A stretch of 36,226 nt of DNA from Acidimicrobiia bacterium (GTDB taxonomy: Bacteria > Actinomycetota > Acidimicrobiia > Acidimicrobiales > SZUA-35): NCBI GenBank assembly GCA_003231975.1, contig QIKW01000132.1:1-36226 (forward strand), written 5' to 3'. The notes under the pieces were generated by a model, which was given only the letters and a program-made list of their open reading frames with translations, was not told where the DNA came from and did no database searches. The position numbers and the translations under genes were made by a program. Positions within the stretch are counted from its first letter, which is position 1. Each line of letters opens with the position of its first letter. Shown one piece after another: positions 2,322 to 36,226 of the stretch.

Positions 2322-5177
2322 ATGACTGTTACAGAGTTCGTAGTGATCGCCGCCAGCATTGTGTTGGCGGGTTTCTTATGGTGGTTCTTCTTCGGACCCA
2401 AGAAGGCCAGACAGGCCGATGTGGTCGCCGGGAAGCAGCAGGTGAAGGTCACCGTGAAGGGCGGGTACTCACCCGATGTGATTCGAGTGAAGCAGGGCGT
2501 GCCGCTTCGCATCGAGTTCGACCGTCAAGAGTCAGGAGATTGCACATCGAGAGTTGTGTTCTCCGATTTCGGTGTGTCGGCAACACTGCCCGCCTTCGGG
2601 ACCGCCAGTGTCGAGTTCACTCCAGACAAGGTCGGCGAGTTCAGCTTTGCCTGCGGCATGAACATGATTCACGGCACGCTTGTTGTCGAGCCCGCTTCCG
2701 TTGACTCAAGTGCCCCAGTGAACGGATCTGTTCCACTCAACGTAATGGCCGGCCTCGAGCAGGCCGTCAACACAGAATCAGAGCAAGTCGAGTTCCGGGT
2801 TTCGGGCATGTCGTGTGCGTCTTGTGTGGCAAACATCGAGTCGGCGCTGGACGGCATCGACGGTGTGGATCACGCCGAGGTGAGCTTTGGAACCGAAAGG
2901 GCTACGGTCGATTTCAACCCAGGTCTAGTCACAGCAGAACGGATTCAAAGTGTTGTGGGCGACGCCGGCTACCGGTTGGTGCCTCGTCAGGCCGCCAATG
3001 CGAGCGATGCCGGCGATGAGGAAGCAGCCGAGCGACAAGCCGAGATTGCGGACCTGTCGCGCCGGGTTCTCTTTGGGGCGATCCTCTCGGCCCCGGTCGT
3101 GTTCGCGGTAATGGCCGTAGACCTCTTCGGCGCCAACTGGATGCCAGAGCTCCTGCTGAACAACTGGTTCCAACTGGTTCTGATTGCGCCGGTGATGTTC
3201 TACACCGGTTGGCCCATCCACCGAACCGGCTGGCTGACAATGCGGCACCGCACAGCAGACATGAACAGCCTTATCACGATCGGAACAATCGCAGCTTTCA
3301 GTTACAGCCTGCTCGTCACGATCGCCCCATCCCTGGTGCCCGAAAATGTTCGCGAGGTCTACTACGAGGCCGTCGGTGTCATCATCACGTTGATTCTGGT
3401 TGGTCGCCTGCTTGAAGTTCGAGCCAAGGCGGGCACCGGCGAAGCGATTCGCAAACTGATCGGGATGCAGGCCAAAACTGCCACCGTCATTCAGGACGGC
3501 GTTGAGGTTGAGATCCCAGTTGAAGACGTAATACCCGGTGATGTGGTGCTGGTACGTCCTGGCGAAAAAGTTCCAGTGGACGGATTGATTGTGGACGGGC
3601 GCTCAACCCTGGACGAATCGATGGTAACTGGTGAATCAATTCCCGTCACCAAGACAGCAGGCGACACCGTTATTGGCGCAACCATCAACCAAACCGGAGC
3701 TTTCCGCTTCGAGGCCACCAAGGTTGGTTCGGACACGATGCTGTCACAGATCATCAAGTTGGTGGAGCAGGCCCAAGGGTCAAAGGCCCCGATTCAGCGG
3801 CTGGCCGACCTGGTTTCTTCATACTTCGTGCCTGCGGTGATGTTCATCGCAATCACAACCTTCTCGGTTTGGTTCGTTGCCGGGCCGGCCCCCGCATTCA
3901 CCCTGGCACTCGTTGCCGCAGTTGCGGTACTGATCATTGCCTGCCCATGTGCACTTGGCCTGGCCACACCTCTCTCCATCATGGTCTCAACCGGGAAGGG
4001 AGCCGAACAGGGAATCCTGATCCGGTCAGCTGAGTCCTTGGAGACCGCCCACAAGATTGACACCATCGTGCTTGACAAGACCGGCACCATCACCCGGGGA
4101 GAGCCCGCTCTTACCGACGTGTTGACAGCCGCTGGGATGGAAGAGAACGAACTGTTGCGGCTGGTTGCCTCAGCGGAGCAGTCATCTGAACACCCCCTGG
4201 CCGAGGCAATCGTCAGCGCCGCCCGAGAGCGAGGCCTGGAACTAGTCGACCCAGCAGATTTCGACTCGATCACCGGCAAAGGCGTGCGAGCCGTGGTGGA
4301 CGGGCGAGAGGTGCTTATTGGCAACCGGCGCCTTCTGGACGATGCCGGCATTGCAACATCGGAGCTGAACGCCGAGATGGATCGCCTGGCTGAAGCGGGT
4401 CGCACTCCAATGTTGGTTGCGGTGGACGGAAAACCAGGAGGGGTGATAGCCGTTGCCGACACAGTCAAGGAAGACTCAGCAGCTGCCATCGCAACCCTCC
4501 GAGCCTTGGGAATCAAGGTCGCCATGATCACCGGCGACAACGCCCGCACGGCCGCAGCCATCGCCCGCCAAGTTGGGGTGGAGCGGGTTCTGGCCGAAGT
4601 TCTTCCCGAACACAAAGCCATGGAGGTACAGCGTCTTCAGAGCGAGGGCGGCGTGGTGGCCATGGTTGGAGACGGCATCAACGATGCTCCTGCTTTGGCC
4701 CAGGCCGATGTTGGGTTCGCCATCGGAACAGGAACCGACGTGGCAATCGAGTCCTCCGACATCACTTTGATCTCGGGAGCGCTCGACGGTGTGGTCACCG
4801 CAATCACCCTCAGTCGGTCAACCATGCGAAACATACGCCAGAACCTATTCCTGGCCTTTGTTTATAACGGCGTTGGTATCCCGATTGCTGCCGGAGTTCT
4901 CTATCCCTTCGTTGGAATACAGCTGAGCCCAATGATTGCGGCCGCCGCGATGGCGGCATCCAGCCTGTCGGTTGTCACCAATGCCAGCCGACTCCGCCGG
5001 TGGAGCCCCCGAACAATCAGCACCGAGAAACTCCCGGCTGCTGGCGAACCAACGGTTGAGGTGGGAGCAGACGAAGCCCCAACTTCAGAACCACAAACGC
5101 AGGTGGCGCCGGTTGGCGGGTCAGCAGCTCAGCCGGCCAACGTGGCAATCACGCACGCCGACCAGAGCATCCGGTGA
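2322..5177 (+). CDS. copA: Cu(I)-exporting P1B-type ATPase with N-terminal cupredoxin and HMA domains
   Basis: Exports Cu(I) from the cytoplasm using ATP. In order: a membrane helix (about 5-24) followed by the positive stretch GPKKAR; a cupredoxin-like domain (about 40-122, possible ligands C74, C111, M113, H117); an HMA metal-binding domain (about 155-220) with GMSCASC (C165, C168); and the P-type core. The core has TGES (436-439), the CPC transport site (541-543), DKTGT with the phosphorylated D585, SEHPLAEA (622-629) and GDGIND (783-788). At 951 residues it is longer than usual for CopA because of the cupredoxin module. There is no helix between cupredoxin and HMA, and the positive-inside rule suggests both face the cytoplasm. 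Strong Shine-Dalgarno; merR follows 15 bases after the stop. Copper specificity follows from CPC and GMxCxxC; silver is possible. Confidence 0.95.
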
Positions 5178-15738: not shown

Positions 15739-16026
15739 GTGTCCAACCGCCGAGACCAGCCAACCGTCGAAACCTTGTATCGGTCGGGCGTTCAGGCAAT
15801 CCAAGAAATCACCGATTCCTTCAGCCTCACAGACTGGGACCGAACGGTTTGCGGGGAGTGGGACGCATCCGATACGGCGCGCCATCTACTGGGCGTGATC
15901 GACTGGTACCACGAATCAGCGCCAACAACCAACAGCGTCATCAGCCAGCCGAACCAGGTCAACTGCTCATCGCGGCGGGCCGAGCTGTGGCTGCAACGAA
16001 GGGTGGAGTTCGTGGAATTGCGCTAA
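15739..16026 (+). pseudogene. Fragment of a mycothiol-dependent maleylpyruvate-isomerase-like gene
   Basis: The first 55 residues resemble the N-terminal DinB-like domain of this actinobacterial family: VETLYRSGVQAIQEI, TDWDRTVCGEWDASDTARHL and LGVIDWYHE. After WYHE the similarity stops and the frame ends at residue 95, whereas full members have 200 or more residues. Neither other frame to 16213 clearly continues the family, so this looks like a deletion remnant, not a simple frameshift. Start GTG 15739, 16 bases from the divergent VOC start. Confidence 0.5.
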
Positions 16027-16182
16027 ATAGCCTGGTGCGACTTGGATCCAAACGCTCGCCGTGGCGAACTCTGCTGAAGAAGTCCGGCCGCTGAACACGC
16101 CGCTTTAGATCCAGAACACCCCGGCGAAGAAGCTCGATAAGACGCCGAGCGCAACGTTTGTCCATCCGGGGATAGTAGAGCT

Positions 16183-31932: not shown

Positions 31933-32553
31933 TCAGTGTCTGGAACGCAGAATCACCGACGCCGCCTCGGTACGGGTCTGCACCTGGAGCTTCATCAGAA
32001 TGCTGCTGACATGATTCTTGACCGTGAAGATGCTCAGCTCCAGATGGTCGGCCATCTCAGCGTTTGTTCTTCCCTCAGCCACGAGATTGGCCACTTCCCC
32101 TTCGCGCGCAGTAAGCGAGGAAATGCCAGCGGGGCCGGCTCGCCCCATCAGAGCGCGGGTGACCTCGGGCGAAAACGCGCTTTGCCCGGCGGCCGCGCTG
32201 CGCACCGCTCTAGCCAGCGATTCGGCCTCGACAGACTTCACTAGGTAGCAGTTGGCGCCAGCATCAATGGCCTCGCGGACGCGTCGAGCCTCGGAGAAAC
32301 TCGAAAGGGCCACTATGCCAAGGCCGGCGTCGTCCCTGCGAAGCTGTCGGATTGCCTCGGTGCCGCCGATGCCGGGCATCACTAGGTCCATCACAACCAC
32401 GTCGGGGCACAACCGGGAGACAGCGGTAATCGCCGACTCGCCGCTGGGAGCCTCGCCAACAACATCAAGATCACCAAACGACGCCAGACAGGCGCTGACC
32501 CCCTCGCGGAGGAGGTCGTGATCATCAACGACCAGAACAGAGATGGTGGTCAT
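31933..32553 (-). CDS. NarL/LuxR-family response regulator
   Basis: DNA-binding output of the two-component system, 206 residues. The receiver domain (about 4-120) has the acidic pair D10-D11, phosphoacceptor D56 in VVVMDLVMP and the conserved Lys in CYLVKSV. The LuxR-type helix-turn-helix (about 143-203) shows SLTAREGEVANLVAEGRTNA and FTVKNHVSSILMKL. It overlaps the kinase gene by ATGA at 32550-32553, so partners are made together. Lying just upstream of the livH operon on the same strand, it may control that operon, but distance and a separate palindrome leave this open. Confidence 0.93.
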   Translation of the reverse strand: MTTISVLVVDDHDLLREGVSACLASFGDLDVVGEAPSGESAITAVSRLCPDVVVMDLVMPGIGGTEAIRQLRRDDAGLGIVALSSFSEARRVREAIDAGANCYLVKSVEAESLARAVRSAAAGQSAFSPEVTRALMGRAGPAGISSLTAREGEVANLVAEGRTNAEMADHLELSIFTVKNHVSSILMKLQVQTRTEAASVILRSRH

Positions 32554-34250
32554 GTGGTCATCCGCAAGCGGAGCGTTGTGCCATCTCCTGGTGCGGTCTC
32601 GATCAGGAGATCAGCACCGACTGCGTCCGCCCGTTCCTGCATGATTGCTAGGCCAAAGTGGCCGCCGGGCACATTGTTACGATCGAATCCCGAGCCGTCG
32701 TCGGCGATTCTCAATTCGATTGGCGACCCATTCTTGAGGGTTACAGAAAGAGATTTTGCGTTGGCGTGTTGTGCCACATTCGCCAGCGCCTCCTGAGCAA
32801 TCCGGTAACACGCTATATGCGCGGCCGAACCGAGTTCAACCGGGTCTAGGTCAACAGCGATTTCGATCGCACGGCGACACTCGAGAGCATCAAGAAGGCG
32901 GCGGATAAGTTCATCCAGGCCTACTTCGGCCAGTTCAGACGGGCGCAGTTCCAGAAGCAAAGCTCTCATCTCGGCCAGCGCGCCCCGCGTAAGTTGACGG
33001 AGCCGATCGACACGGTGATGCAACTCTGAGTCGCTTCCCACATCCACGAGAAGCGATTCAGCGGTAAGCGCTGCTGTCCATAGAGTCTGGTTGACGGCAT
33101 CGTGAAGATCGCGGGCAAGTCGTTGTCGTTCCTCGGCTGTGGCCAGTTCGGACACTCGGCTTGTTAGCTGAGAATTCGAAAGCGCAGCGCCTGCCTGATC
33201 GGCAACAGCTACCAGACGATCTAGATGGCCGTCTGAGAAAAAGCCTGGGGTTGCGCTCTCTGCCACCAGGAATCCAACGAGTTGGTCTGCAACCTGAATT
33301 CGGGCGCCTATGACCGATCGAGCCGGGCCAAACGCCGCTACAGGGTCATCCACTATCACACGCCCAGCCGCATGCATCAGCTGTTCTATGACCGTTAGCG
33401 AGTCAACATCAATTTCGGCAACGTTCACCGAATCTGGGAGATACCCGAATCCGGTGTTGTGGCGGCTCAGTCGACGGCGGCCGTCGGCGTTGACCAGCAC
33501 CACACCGACGAAGTCATTCGAAACGAGCCGCTCGACCCCCGACAGGATCTCGGCGGTAATTCCGTCAATGTCGAAGGTTTGGGAAATTGCGGCAGCGGTG
33601 TCTCGGAGCGCCTCGGCGTATGCCCGCTGCTGGCGCTCTTCGGCCTGGAGTCGAATACGGTCCTCGACCTCGCGTCGCAGAGTCTTGTTGGCTCGGGTCA
33701 ATTCGGTTGTTCGAAGGTTTACTCGTTGATCAAGATCTTCCAGGGTGCGCTGAAGTTCGCTTTCGACGTGTCGGCGGTCGGTGACATCTTCGAATGTTCC
33801 AAGCACACCAATAACCTCACCGCTTGGGCCTCTCAACGGCAGCTTGTTGGTTTCGATCCAACGCATATCTCCATCGGCCCGCCGGAGCCGCTCGAGGATT
33901 CCGAAACAGGGCTCGCCGCTCTTGAGCACTGTTTGGTCCCAATCAATGAACCACTCGGCGCTGAACTCAGGGTCATCCACCCACGGCATATCGCGATCTG
34001 ACTTGCCGAGGATTAGGGCGGGCTCAAACCCTGCGAAGTTGGCAAACACCTGATTGCAGCCCAAGTAACAAGAGTCGGCGTCCTTCCAGAACACAGCACT
34101 GGTCATGGACTCCATGAGCGTTTGGAGCATCTGTTGACAGGCCGTTAGTTCATCGGTTCCCGAGACCTCGCCCCGCAACAGCGCCGCATACATGTCGCGA
34201 ACCTCCGCTGAACGAGTCGATACTTGGCCCATCTGTGAATCAATGCTCAT
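32550..34250 (-). CDS. Soluble PAS-GAF sensor histidine kinase (HisKA_3)
   Basis: Sensor kinase of 566 residues with no membrane helix, so it senses a cytoplasmic signal. A PAS domain (about 42-160, with FWKDADSCYLGCNQVFANFAG) ends in DVTDRR and passes through a coiled coil (160-215) to a GAF domain (about 215-360). The HisKA_3 dimerisation motif EERQRLARDLHDAVNQTL has the phosphoacceptor H383. The ATP-binding part has QEALANVAQHANA, DDGSGFD and GHFGLAIMQERA. Small molecule, redox or gas binding by PAS or GAF is possible; C61 and C65 in the PAS core might hold a cofactor, but this is speculation. Divergent from the DUF1971-like gene. Confidence 0.93.
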   Translation of the reverse strand: MSIDSQMGQVSTRSAEVRDMYAALLRGEVSGTDELTACQQMLQTLMESMTSAVFWKDADSCYLGCNQVFANFAGFEPALILGKSDRDMPWVDDPEFSAEWFIDWDQTVLKSGEPCFGILERLRRADGDMRWIETNKLPLRGPSGEVIGVLGTFEDVTDRRHVESELQRTLEDLDQRVNLRTTELTRANKTLRREVEDRIRLQAEERQQRAYAEALRDTAAAISQTFDIDGITAEILSGVERLVSNDFVGVVLVNADGRRRLSRHNTGFGYLPDSVNVAEIDVDSLTVIEQLMHAAGRVIVDDPVAAFGPARSVIGARIQVADQLVGFLVAESATPGFFSDGHLDRLVAVADQAGAALSNSQLTSRVSELATAEERQRLARDLHDAVNQTLWTAALTAESLLVDVGSDSELHHRVDRLRQLTRGALAEMRALLLELRPSELAEVGLDELIRRLLDALECRRAIEIAVDLDPVELGSAAHIACYRIAQEALANVAQHANAKSLSVTLKNGSPIELRIADDGSGFDRNNVPGGHFGLAIMQERADAVGADLLIETAPGDGTTLRLRMTT

Positions 34251-34285: not shown

Positions 34286-34570
34286 ATGACTAACCCTCGC
34301 CAACTCCCGCCCGGGGTTGAATTGATTCGCACCACACCGACGTTCACCGAAGCTGACGTTCCAGCTGGTCTGCTGAAAGCGCACCGGGTGGCCGAAGGCG
34401 TTTGGGGACGACTCGCCGTCAACACGGGCGCGTTGACTTTCGTGTTCGAAGATGCACCAGATACTCAAGCCTTGGTTGGTGCGGGCGAGCACCTGATCAT
34501 CCCGCCGAACCGGCCCCACCATCTCGAGATCGACGGCGCCGTTGAGTTCGTTGTTGAATTCTTTCGCTGA
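34286..34570 (+). CDS. DUF1971-like cupin protein
   Basis: Small cupin-fold protein of 94 residues resembling DUF1971, the domain found alone or beside TehB-type methyltransferases. The pattern LPPGVELIRTTPTFTEADVP, LLKAHRVAEGVWGRLAV and GEHLIIPPNRPHHLEIDG fits, including the HxxxxGxW motif and the final PPNxPHH. Metal binding through its histidines is likely; the biological role is unknown. Divergent from the histidine kinase with only 35 bases between the starts. Its last 74 bases overlap the antisense tail of the EamA gene. Confidence 0.78.
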   Translation: MTNPRQLPPGVELIRTTPTFTEADVPAGLLKAHRVAEGVWGRLAVNTGALTFVFEDAPDTQALVGAGEHLIIPPNRPHHLEIDGAVEFVVEFFR

Positions 34571-35321
34571 CCCCGCTCACTGATTCTCTAGTTGCGAAGT
34601 GCTTCATGTTTCTGTCACTCCGGCCCCGTGCTGGGCCAGGCTTGGAGGCCGCCAGACCCAACGCAATTCCGGCTCCAACCAGGGCGGCCCCGCCCAGGAC
34701 CGAAGCCGTGATGGTGGTTAGGTCGGGCACCAAGCCAGTGAGGGCCGCTGATACCGGGATCAGCCCCGCCAACAACCCGGCATTGGCCGGGCCGATCCTC
34801 TGCACCGCGGTGTACCAGAGCACAAAGGCAATAGCAGTGAGCACTATTGCGAGGTAGACGATGGCAAATACCTCATTAGCGGCCAGCGGGGGCAATGCGT
34901 TCGCGCCGTCGGCGATTAGCGCAAGAAACACGAGTTGCAGCGCCGCAATCCAGCAGGTGTGGGTGGAGACTCCGAATGGCCCCAGGCGGTCAAGAATCGG
35001 CACCGCCAGCAGGGTAAACGCGGCTTCGCAGGCCAACGCCAGAAATGACCACGCCACGCCGCTGGCGGAGGTGCGGCCGCCACCCTGCACCAGGGCCGCT
35101 CCGATAACCACAAGAACAACTCCAACGATCATGGCGGGCGCCGGTCGCCGCCTGGTCCGGATGGCCTCGGCGATGGTTAAGACAAGCGGCACTGATCCGA
35201 TCAGGACGGCCACGGCTGCAGGTTCGGCGCTGCTAACAGCTCTGACAACTGCAACGTTGTACAGCGCCTGGCCACTGGCGGCCAACAACAGCAGCCAAAC
35301 CCAGTCCCGACCTTTCGGCAT
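34497..35321 (-). CDS. EamA/DMT family transporter, 5'-truncated (probable pseudogene)
   Basis: Ten-helix-type drug/metabolite transporter related to EamA exporters. From the first in-frame start, ATG 35321, the protein has 274 residues and lacks the first one to two helices. EamA-like sequence (IAIRYGLAAIVLVAGLRV) continues upstream in frame to about 35395 but has no start codon, then meets antisense of the MocR-like gene and a stop. At the other end, the last roughly 45 residues (after LGLAASKPG) are polar, arginine-rich and antisense to the DUF1971 gene, as if the original stop were lost. The divergent MocR-type regulator is its usual kind of partner. Probably inactive. Confidence 0.7.
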   Translation of the reverse strand: MPKGRDWVWLLLLAASGQALYNVAVVRAVSSAEPAAVAVLIGSVPLVLTIAEAIRTRRRPAPAMIVGVVLVVIGAALVQGGGRTSASGVAWSFLALACEAAFTLLAVPILDRLGPFGVSTHTCWIAALQLVFLALIADGANALPPLAANEVFAIVYLAIVLTAIAFVLWYTAVQRIGPANAGLLAGLIPVSAALTGLVPDLTTITASVLGGAALVGAGIALGLAASKPGPARGRSDRNMKHFATRESVSGVSERIQQRTQRRRRSRDGGAGSAG

Positions 35322-35386
35322 CGGGATAGTGCGACCTGTAACTCGCAGACCTGCTACAAGAACGATGGCCGCAAGTCCGTAGCGGA

Positions 35387-36226
35387 TTGCTATATGACCA
35401 ACTGAAGGCCGAGGGCTACCTCACCGCACGCCAGGGCTCGGGAACGCTAGTGGCAGATCTAGTTGACCCGGGCGGGGCTCAAGCCAGCACCCAGCCTCGG
35501 GTGCAACTGAACGCGAACCAGCAGAGCCCAGGCCTACCAGACCCGAACATCTTCCCTCGGCGAGACTGGCTGAAGGCCTATCGCTCTGCTTTCGACCGGC
35601 TCCCCGATGCCGACTTTCACTACCCCAACCCGCAAGGCTACGAACCCCTGCGAACCGAACTGGCCGACTACCTCGGTCGGGTCAGGGGCCTTCGCTGCAG
35701 CCCTGGCCAGATTCTCATCGTCAACGGGTTCGCGCAGGGGCTCGCAATCCTCTCCCGGATCCTTCCCAAGCACGGCATCACCCGAATCGCCGTCGAAGAA
35801 CCGGGGTCGACTGGCACCAGGAATCAACTCCGTGATTGGGGCATCGCCACGCCGCCGGCCGACGTAGACGGCGAGGGGCTCAAGATCGACTCGCTGCGTC
35901 GCACCGGCGCTCCCGCGGTACTGCTGACTCCTGCCCATCACTACCCCACCGGAGTGGTGCTCTCACCGCAACGTCGCAGACAACTGCTCCGCTGGGTGCG
36001 CGAATCGACTGGCCGCTACATAATCGAGGATGACTACGACGCCGAGTTTCGCTACGACCACGCGCCCGTCGGCTCTCTCCAGCCACTCGACCCGCAGCGT
36101 GTCATTACTGGTTCCAGCGTCTCCAAAACTCTCTCGCCCGCGCTCCGGCTGGGCTGGTTGGTTTTGCCAAGCGATCTTGTCGCAGAAGCCACCGCCGCCA
36201 AAGCATCGTTCGACCTCGGAACCTCC
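35387..36226 (+). CDS. MocR/PdxR-like GntR-aminotransferase regulator, 5'-truncated and running off the window
   Basis: An open frame runs unbroken from 35342 to the window end. It encodes only the last part of the winged-helix domain (LYDQLKAEGYLTARQGSGTL) followed by a fold-type I PLP aminotransferase domain: NPQGYEPLRTELADYL, VNGFAQGL, EEPGSTG, TPAHHYPTG, the PLP-contacting IIEDDYDAEFRY and the Schiff-base lysine in TGSSVSKTLSPALRLGW. About 60 N-terminal residues normally present in MocR proteins, including the recognition helix, are missing. The only start near the break is TTG 35387. The domain itself is intact as far as seen. Its divergent neighbour is broken at the same place, pointing to one deletion. 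The 3' end lies outside the window. Confidence 0.72.
   Translation, partial: MLYDQLKAEGYLTARQGSGTLVADLVDPGGAQASTQPRVQLNANQQSPGLPDPNIFPRRDWLKAYRSAFDRLPDADFHYPNPQGYEPLRTELADYLGRVRGLRCSPGQILIVNGFAQGLAILSRILPKHGITRIAVEEPGSTGTRNQLRDWGIATPPADVDGEGLKIDSLRRTGAPAVLLTPAHHYPTGVVLSPQRRRQLLRWVRESTGRYIIEDDYDAEFRYDHAPVGSLQPLDPQRVITGSSVSKTLSPALRLGWLVLPSDLVAEATAAKASFDLGTS

Follow-up and report, generated by a model that had tools for sequence, protein, structure and literature searches.

A divergent MocR–EamA gene pair in a draft Acidimicrobiia genome that appears to have lost its shared start region in one deletion

Introduction

Transcription factors of the MocR subfamily are described in PMC5320631 as often being transcribed divergently from their targets, in so-called divergons, and as often repressing their own transcription; it also places transporters of the DMT superfamily in PdxQ and some other MocR regulons. 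Compared by gene arrangement alone, the locus reported here resembles the MocR-TF/target divergons of PMC5320631 in that a MocR-type regulator adjoins, and is divergent from, a DMT/EamA transporter, and differs from them in that the common start region is gone. The locus lies in a stretch of 36,226 bp (hereafter the window), which is the whole contig C12 of a draft Acidimicrobiia assembly (G000; 3.7 Mb in 275 contigs, computed completeness 95.48%). A first-pass annotation made from the sequence had proposed that a single deletion beheaded both genes. We compared the locus with intact pairs of the same two genes and weighed the deletion against an artefact of the assembly.

Results

Two genes without their starts

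On the minus strand, the EamA frame has its stop at 34497 and in the other direction stays open as far as 35420, where it is bounded by a TGA at 35423-35421. Two stretches within 34500-35396 match Pfam EamA (PF00892, E=4.8e-22), so that the EamA domains of EamA/DMT transporters are present, and a complete N-terminus with the first membrane helix and a start codon was not found in the window. As had been noted in the first-pass annotation, the transporter sequence, which runs to 35390, has no start codon at its upstream end; the earliest ATG, GTG or TTG in the frame is the ATG at 35321. With the ORF starts of the relatives described below as reference, the first 37 codons are missing, and these contain the hydrophobic segment at residues 6-24 of the L060 transporter. 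A start at ATG 35321 would cost the transporter 60 residues in total by alignment.

On the plus strand, the MocR frame has a TAA at 35339-35341 upstream and a TTG at 35387 as its first ATG, GTG or TTG, and is open to the end of the contig. At a cut-off of E<=0.001, only the aminotransferase part was found by Pfam (PF00155, E=6.5e-12) and the GntR winged helix gave no match, whereas the MocR proteins of the relatives L060 and L024 have GntR at 43-100 and 36-93, respectively, and the aminotransferase as well. Judged by this domain content, the frame is the remnant of a MocR subfamily member, with the aminotransferase fold present and the N-terminal GntR domain not found. It lacks 72 (L024) or 79 (L060) codons, counted from the relatives' ORF starts, and the GntR match, 58 residues long in either relative, has lost 37 of them, i.e. 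most of the winged helix. The proposal that the regulator begins inside its winged helix was thus borne out, its frame starting at 35391 against the intact pairs. Of the losses first estimated, 35-40 residues for the transporter agreed with the 37 found, and about 60 for the regulator was close to, if lower than, the 72-79 found.

The regulator gene extends beyond the window. The last 40 bases of C12 match exactly the first 40 of contig C215, reversed, and no third copy of this 40-mer was found in G000; since it is confined to the two contig ends, C12 and C215 are adjacent. The MocR frame continues through the overlap and stays open on C215. The part on C215 gave no Pfam match on its own and aligns with the C-terminus of the L061 MocR protein. 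Identity of the window's MocR sequence to that of L024 is 65%. The coordinates are collected in Table 1.

Table 1 Features of the locus. Positions are those of the window unless a contig is named.
Feature	Position	Strand	Basis
EamA (drug/metabolite transporter superfamily) gene remnant	34497..35390	-	Pfam EamA; 77% identity to L060, 65% to L024
Deletion junction (putative), 357 bp of both intact relatives absent	35390..35391	.	Base-by-base comparison with L060 and L024
MocR-type (GntR + aminotransferase) regulator remnant	35391..36226, on into contig C215 (L059) to base 3800	+	PF00155 without GntR; open frame on C215
Contig-end 40 bp identical to the C215 end	36187..36226	+	Exact overlap, the two contigs being neighbours

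Both genes also run into their neighbours at the 3' side. The EamA gene overlaps a convergent DUF1971 gene by 74 bp (34497-34570), and the MocR gene overlaps a convergent xylulokinase-like gene on C215 by 99 bp (L059:3800-3898) and ends about 31 residues past the end of the L061 protein. Lost stop codons would fit decay of the two headless genes, but these may be native overlaps. The L060 contig, too, ends inside its MocR gene (L060:1-12), about 14 residues before the end point of C12 by alignment, which is probably a coincidence.

One continuous stretch is missing relative to two intact pairs

Intact pairs were found in two relatives. L024, from a search of 395 genomes of the class, belongs to the same record as L061, the metagenome-assembled genome (MAG) of an uncultured Acidimicrobiia bacterium; L060, from a profile scan of genome contigs with an alignment of 14 transporters, is the MAG of Actinomycetota bacterium isolate M_MetaBat.222. 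Closer relatives were of little use: at E<=1e-10, only 2 of 61 near genomes matched the transporter, namely G000 itself and G042 (another family of the same order), and no match came from the single genome of this genus or the 35 of this family. Nor was an EamA relative present, at E<=1e-5 and within up to 1.5 kb of flanking DNA, at 19 other MocR loci (L002 to L020; the best, L002, at 52%).

In L024, the transporter starts with GTG (2376, minus strand) and the regulator with ATG (2406, plus strand), 29 bp apart; in L060, two ATGs (1042 and 1033) lie 8 bp apart. These are mechanical ORF starts and later ones are possible. Both pairs are divergent, as the first-pass annotation had expected of intact orthologues, and have the same two genes in the same orientation as the window; unlike the window, both keep the 357 bp missing here. 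Against L060, all of the last 13 bases to 35390 agree with the EamA side and none of the following 16 do, and agreement with the MocR side sets in at about 35391. The edge is the same in L024, so that both intact pairs place the break at 35390|35391. The junction was set by direct base-by-base comparison; in a MAFFT DNA alignment covering both sides, the MocR part was misplaced.

Against either relative, the missing stretch measures 357 bp and comprises 111 bp of EamA, an intergenic part of 8 or 29 bp and, correspondingly, 238 or 217 bp of MocR; the loss in the window's own lineage may differ slightly from this figure, which is measured on the two relatives. The window thus equals those pairs minus one continuous stretch, and this one loss accounts for both headless genes. 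The two readings had been said to overlap by some ten bases. As a property of the frames an overlap exists, at 35387-35420, but by comparison with the relatives only a few bases are ambiguous.

Divergent MocR–EamA pairs are common

In order to see how often the two genes occur together, we used 80 loci from an EamA-profile scan of genome contigs, in which, among the matches listed, 550 of 594 stretches were confirmed and which included L060 and L061. Among the matches listed, a MocR relative adjoins the transporter and is divergent from it at 73 of the 80 loci; in all of these, the matched part of the regulator starts no later than residue 34 of the L024 protein, and that of the transporter no later than residue 18 of the L060 protein. 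At the other seven loci among the matches listed, no MocR relative was found at E<=1e-8 in the flanking DNA that was searched. This agrees with the earlier statement that such pairs are typically divergent, and on these sequence matches the intact divergent MocR–EamA pair is common. The sample was chosen by the transporter, with an alignment whose rows often already had a MocR neighbour, which bounds what can be inferred for either gene in general. The first-pass annotation had also named what would speak against it, a conserved short MocR-like protein starting at TTG 35387. None starting near this point was seen in the 73 pairs among the matches listed; since all of these have the MocR N-terminus, the sample shows no conservation of a short form of the protein.

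Discussion

Deletion or artefact

Three observations together indicate one deletion: both frames break off at one point, orthologous pairs that are intact have a divergent arrangement, and two relatives give an equal missing length. On these sequence comparisons we consider it probable that a divergent MocR–EamA pair lost its shared start region through a single deletion of about 357 bp, and we infer that this took place in the organism and not as a chimera in the library or the assembly. Such a deletion is an ordinary gene-killing event and no new kind of system.

The main competitor, clearly less likely and still to be taken seriously, is that the organism keeps an intact pair and that the roughly 357 bp went missing through a chimeric read or a local misassembly. 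The assembly is a draft in 275 contigs, and C12 stops 836 bp beyond the junction, where its 40-bp overlap with C215 suggests that the assembly graph forks nearby. Neither remaining frame has a premature stop, as is expected of a very recent event and equally of an artefact. On the other hand, when the 60 bases flanking each end on both sides are compared, the longest word common to the two end regions has 6 bases, in L060 as in L024. Words this short, if the same holds in this species, make a collapse of repeats in the assembly unlikely and would not suffice to make a k-mer assembler join the ends falsely, for which a k of about 41 was inferred from the 40-bp overlap; a chimeric molecule may still be the source. 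A deletion in the organism would have needed no repeat, given that the ends share none in the relatives, and could have arisen by end joining or a similar route.

Also against an artefact, searches of G000 found no contig fragment of the intact allele. With up to 3 mismatches allowed, one word from each flank, 5-7 bases off the junction, has a single occurrence in G000. The MocR N-terminus of L024 gave only weaker matches, the best on contig C71 (E=1.1e-6), where it lies in an open frame of 467 aa to which the remainder of the regulator has a match as well. For the 37 residues of the L060 EamA protein that are lost here, G000 gave no match at E<=10, a weak result for so short a query and with no positive control.

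Age of the event

Both remnants still look constrained. By the method of Nei and Gojobori and against L060, dN/dS is 0.11 (0.20/1.91) for EamA and 0.14 (0.27/1.97) for the part of MocR in the window, with dS saturated in both cases. Amino-acid changes unique to the window and to L060 number 20 versus 17 in EamA and 17 versus 17 in MocR. At second codon positions, more changes fall on the window's lineage (45 versus 23, p=0.010, uncorrected and one of seven comparisons), and a relaxation of constraint may therefore go back further than the amino-acid counts indicate. As the remaining frames are open and constrained, the event would be recent relative to the split from L060; the sequences point to a recent event with at most mild relaxation, or else to an artefact.

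Consequences for the two genes

If the deletion is real, both promoters and the operator would have gone with the shared start region. Neither gene would now yield a working product, as the transporter has no usual start before residue 61 and most of the regulator's winged helix is lost. That regulator, operator and target were lost together would be the natural reading.

It is very unlikely that, instead, the MocR-like frame functions from TTG 35387 with an incomplete winged helix, for example as a stand-alone PLP enzyme, and the transporter from ATG 35321: the aminotransferase-like part is recognisable and constrained and the TTG is suitably placed with AGCGGA upstream, but this TTG sits in former EamA sequence, a short MocR was seen in 0 of the 73 divergent pairs among the matches listed, a transporter from ATG 35321 would be without 60 residues including the first hydrophobic segment, and no promoter-like site was found. 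For the latter, 35150-35600 was searched for a sigma-70-like promoter, a weak test in which shuffled sequences also gave about none. Likewise very unlikely is a switch-off of the whole divergon, fixed or segregating in this lineage, in which a single event would have taken away regulator, operator and transporter start and left the PLP-binding half of the regulator expressed in a new role.

The case is of little importance except for annotation: the two genes are to be labelled pseudogenes or the site a suspected misassembly, and neither a functional MocR regulator nor a functional EamA transporter should be annotated at this locus. It also exemplifies a double inactivation by one small deletion, placed where the two genes of a divergent pair share their start region.

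Neighbourhood

Elsewhere in the window, a frame of 95 aa at 15739-16026 gave no Pfam match at E<=0.001; its first 59 residues look like the start of a longer protein, the residues after them no longer do, and all three forward frames stop by 16094. The stretch 15739-16094 could be a second broken gene in the contig, which is an impression only. The pair adjoins a histidine kinase gene (32550-34250), for which 1 of 20 relatives matched at E<=1e-40, namely G042 with 60% identity. In G042, a xylulokinase relative lies about 15 kb from this histidine kinase (both within 18 kb), in an order other than here.
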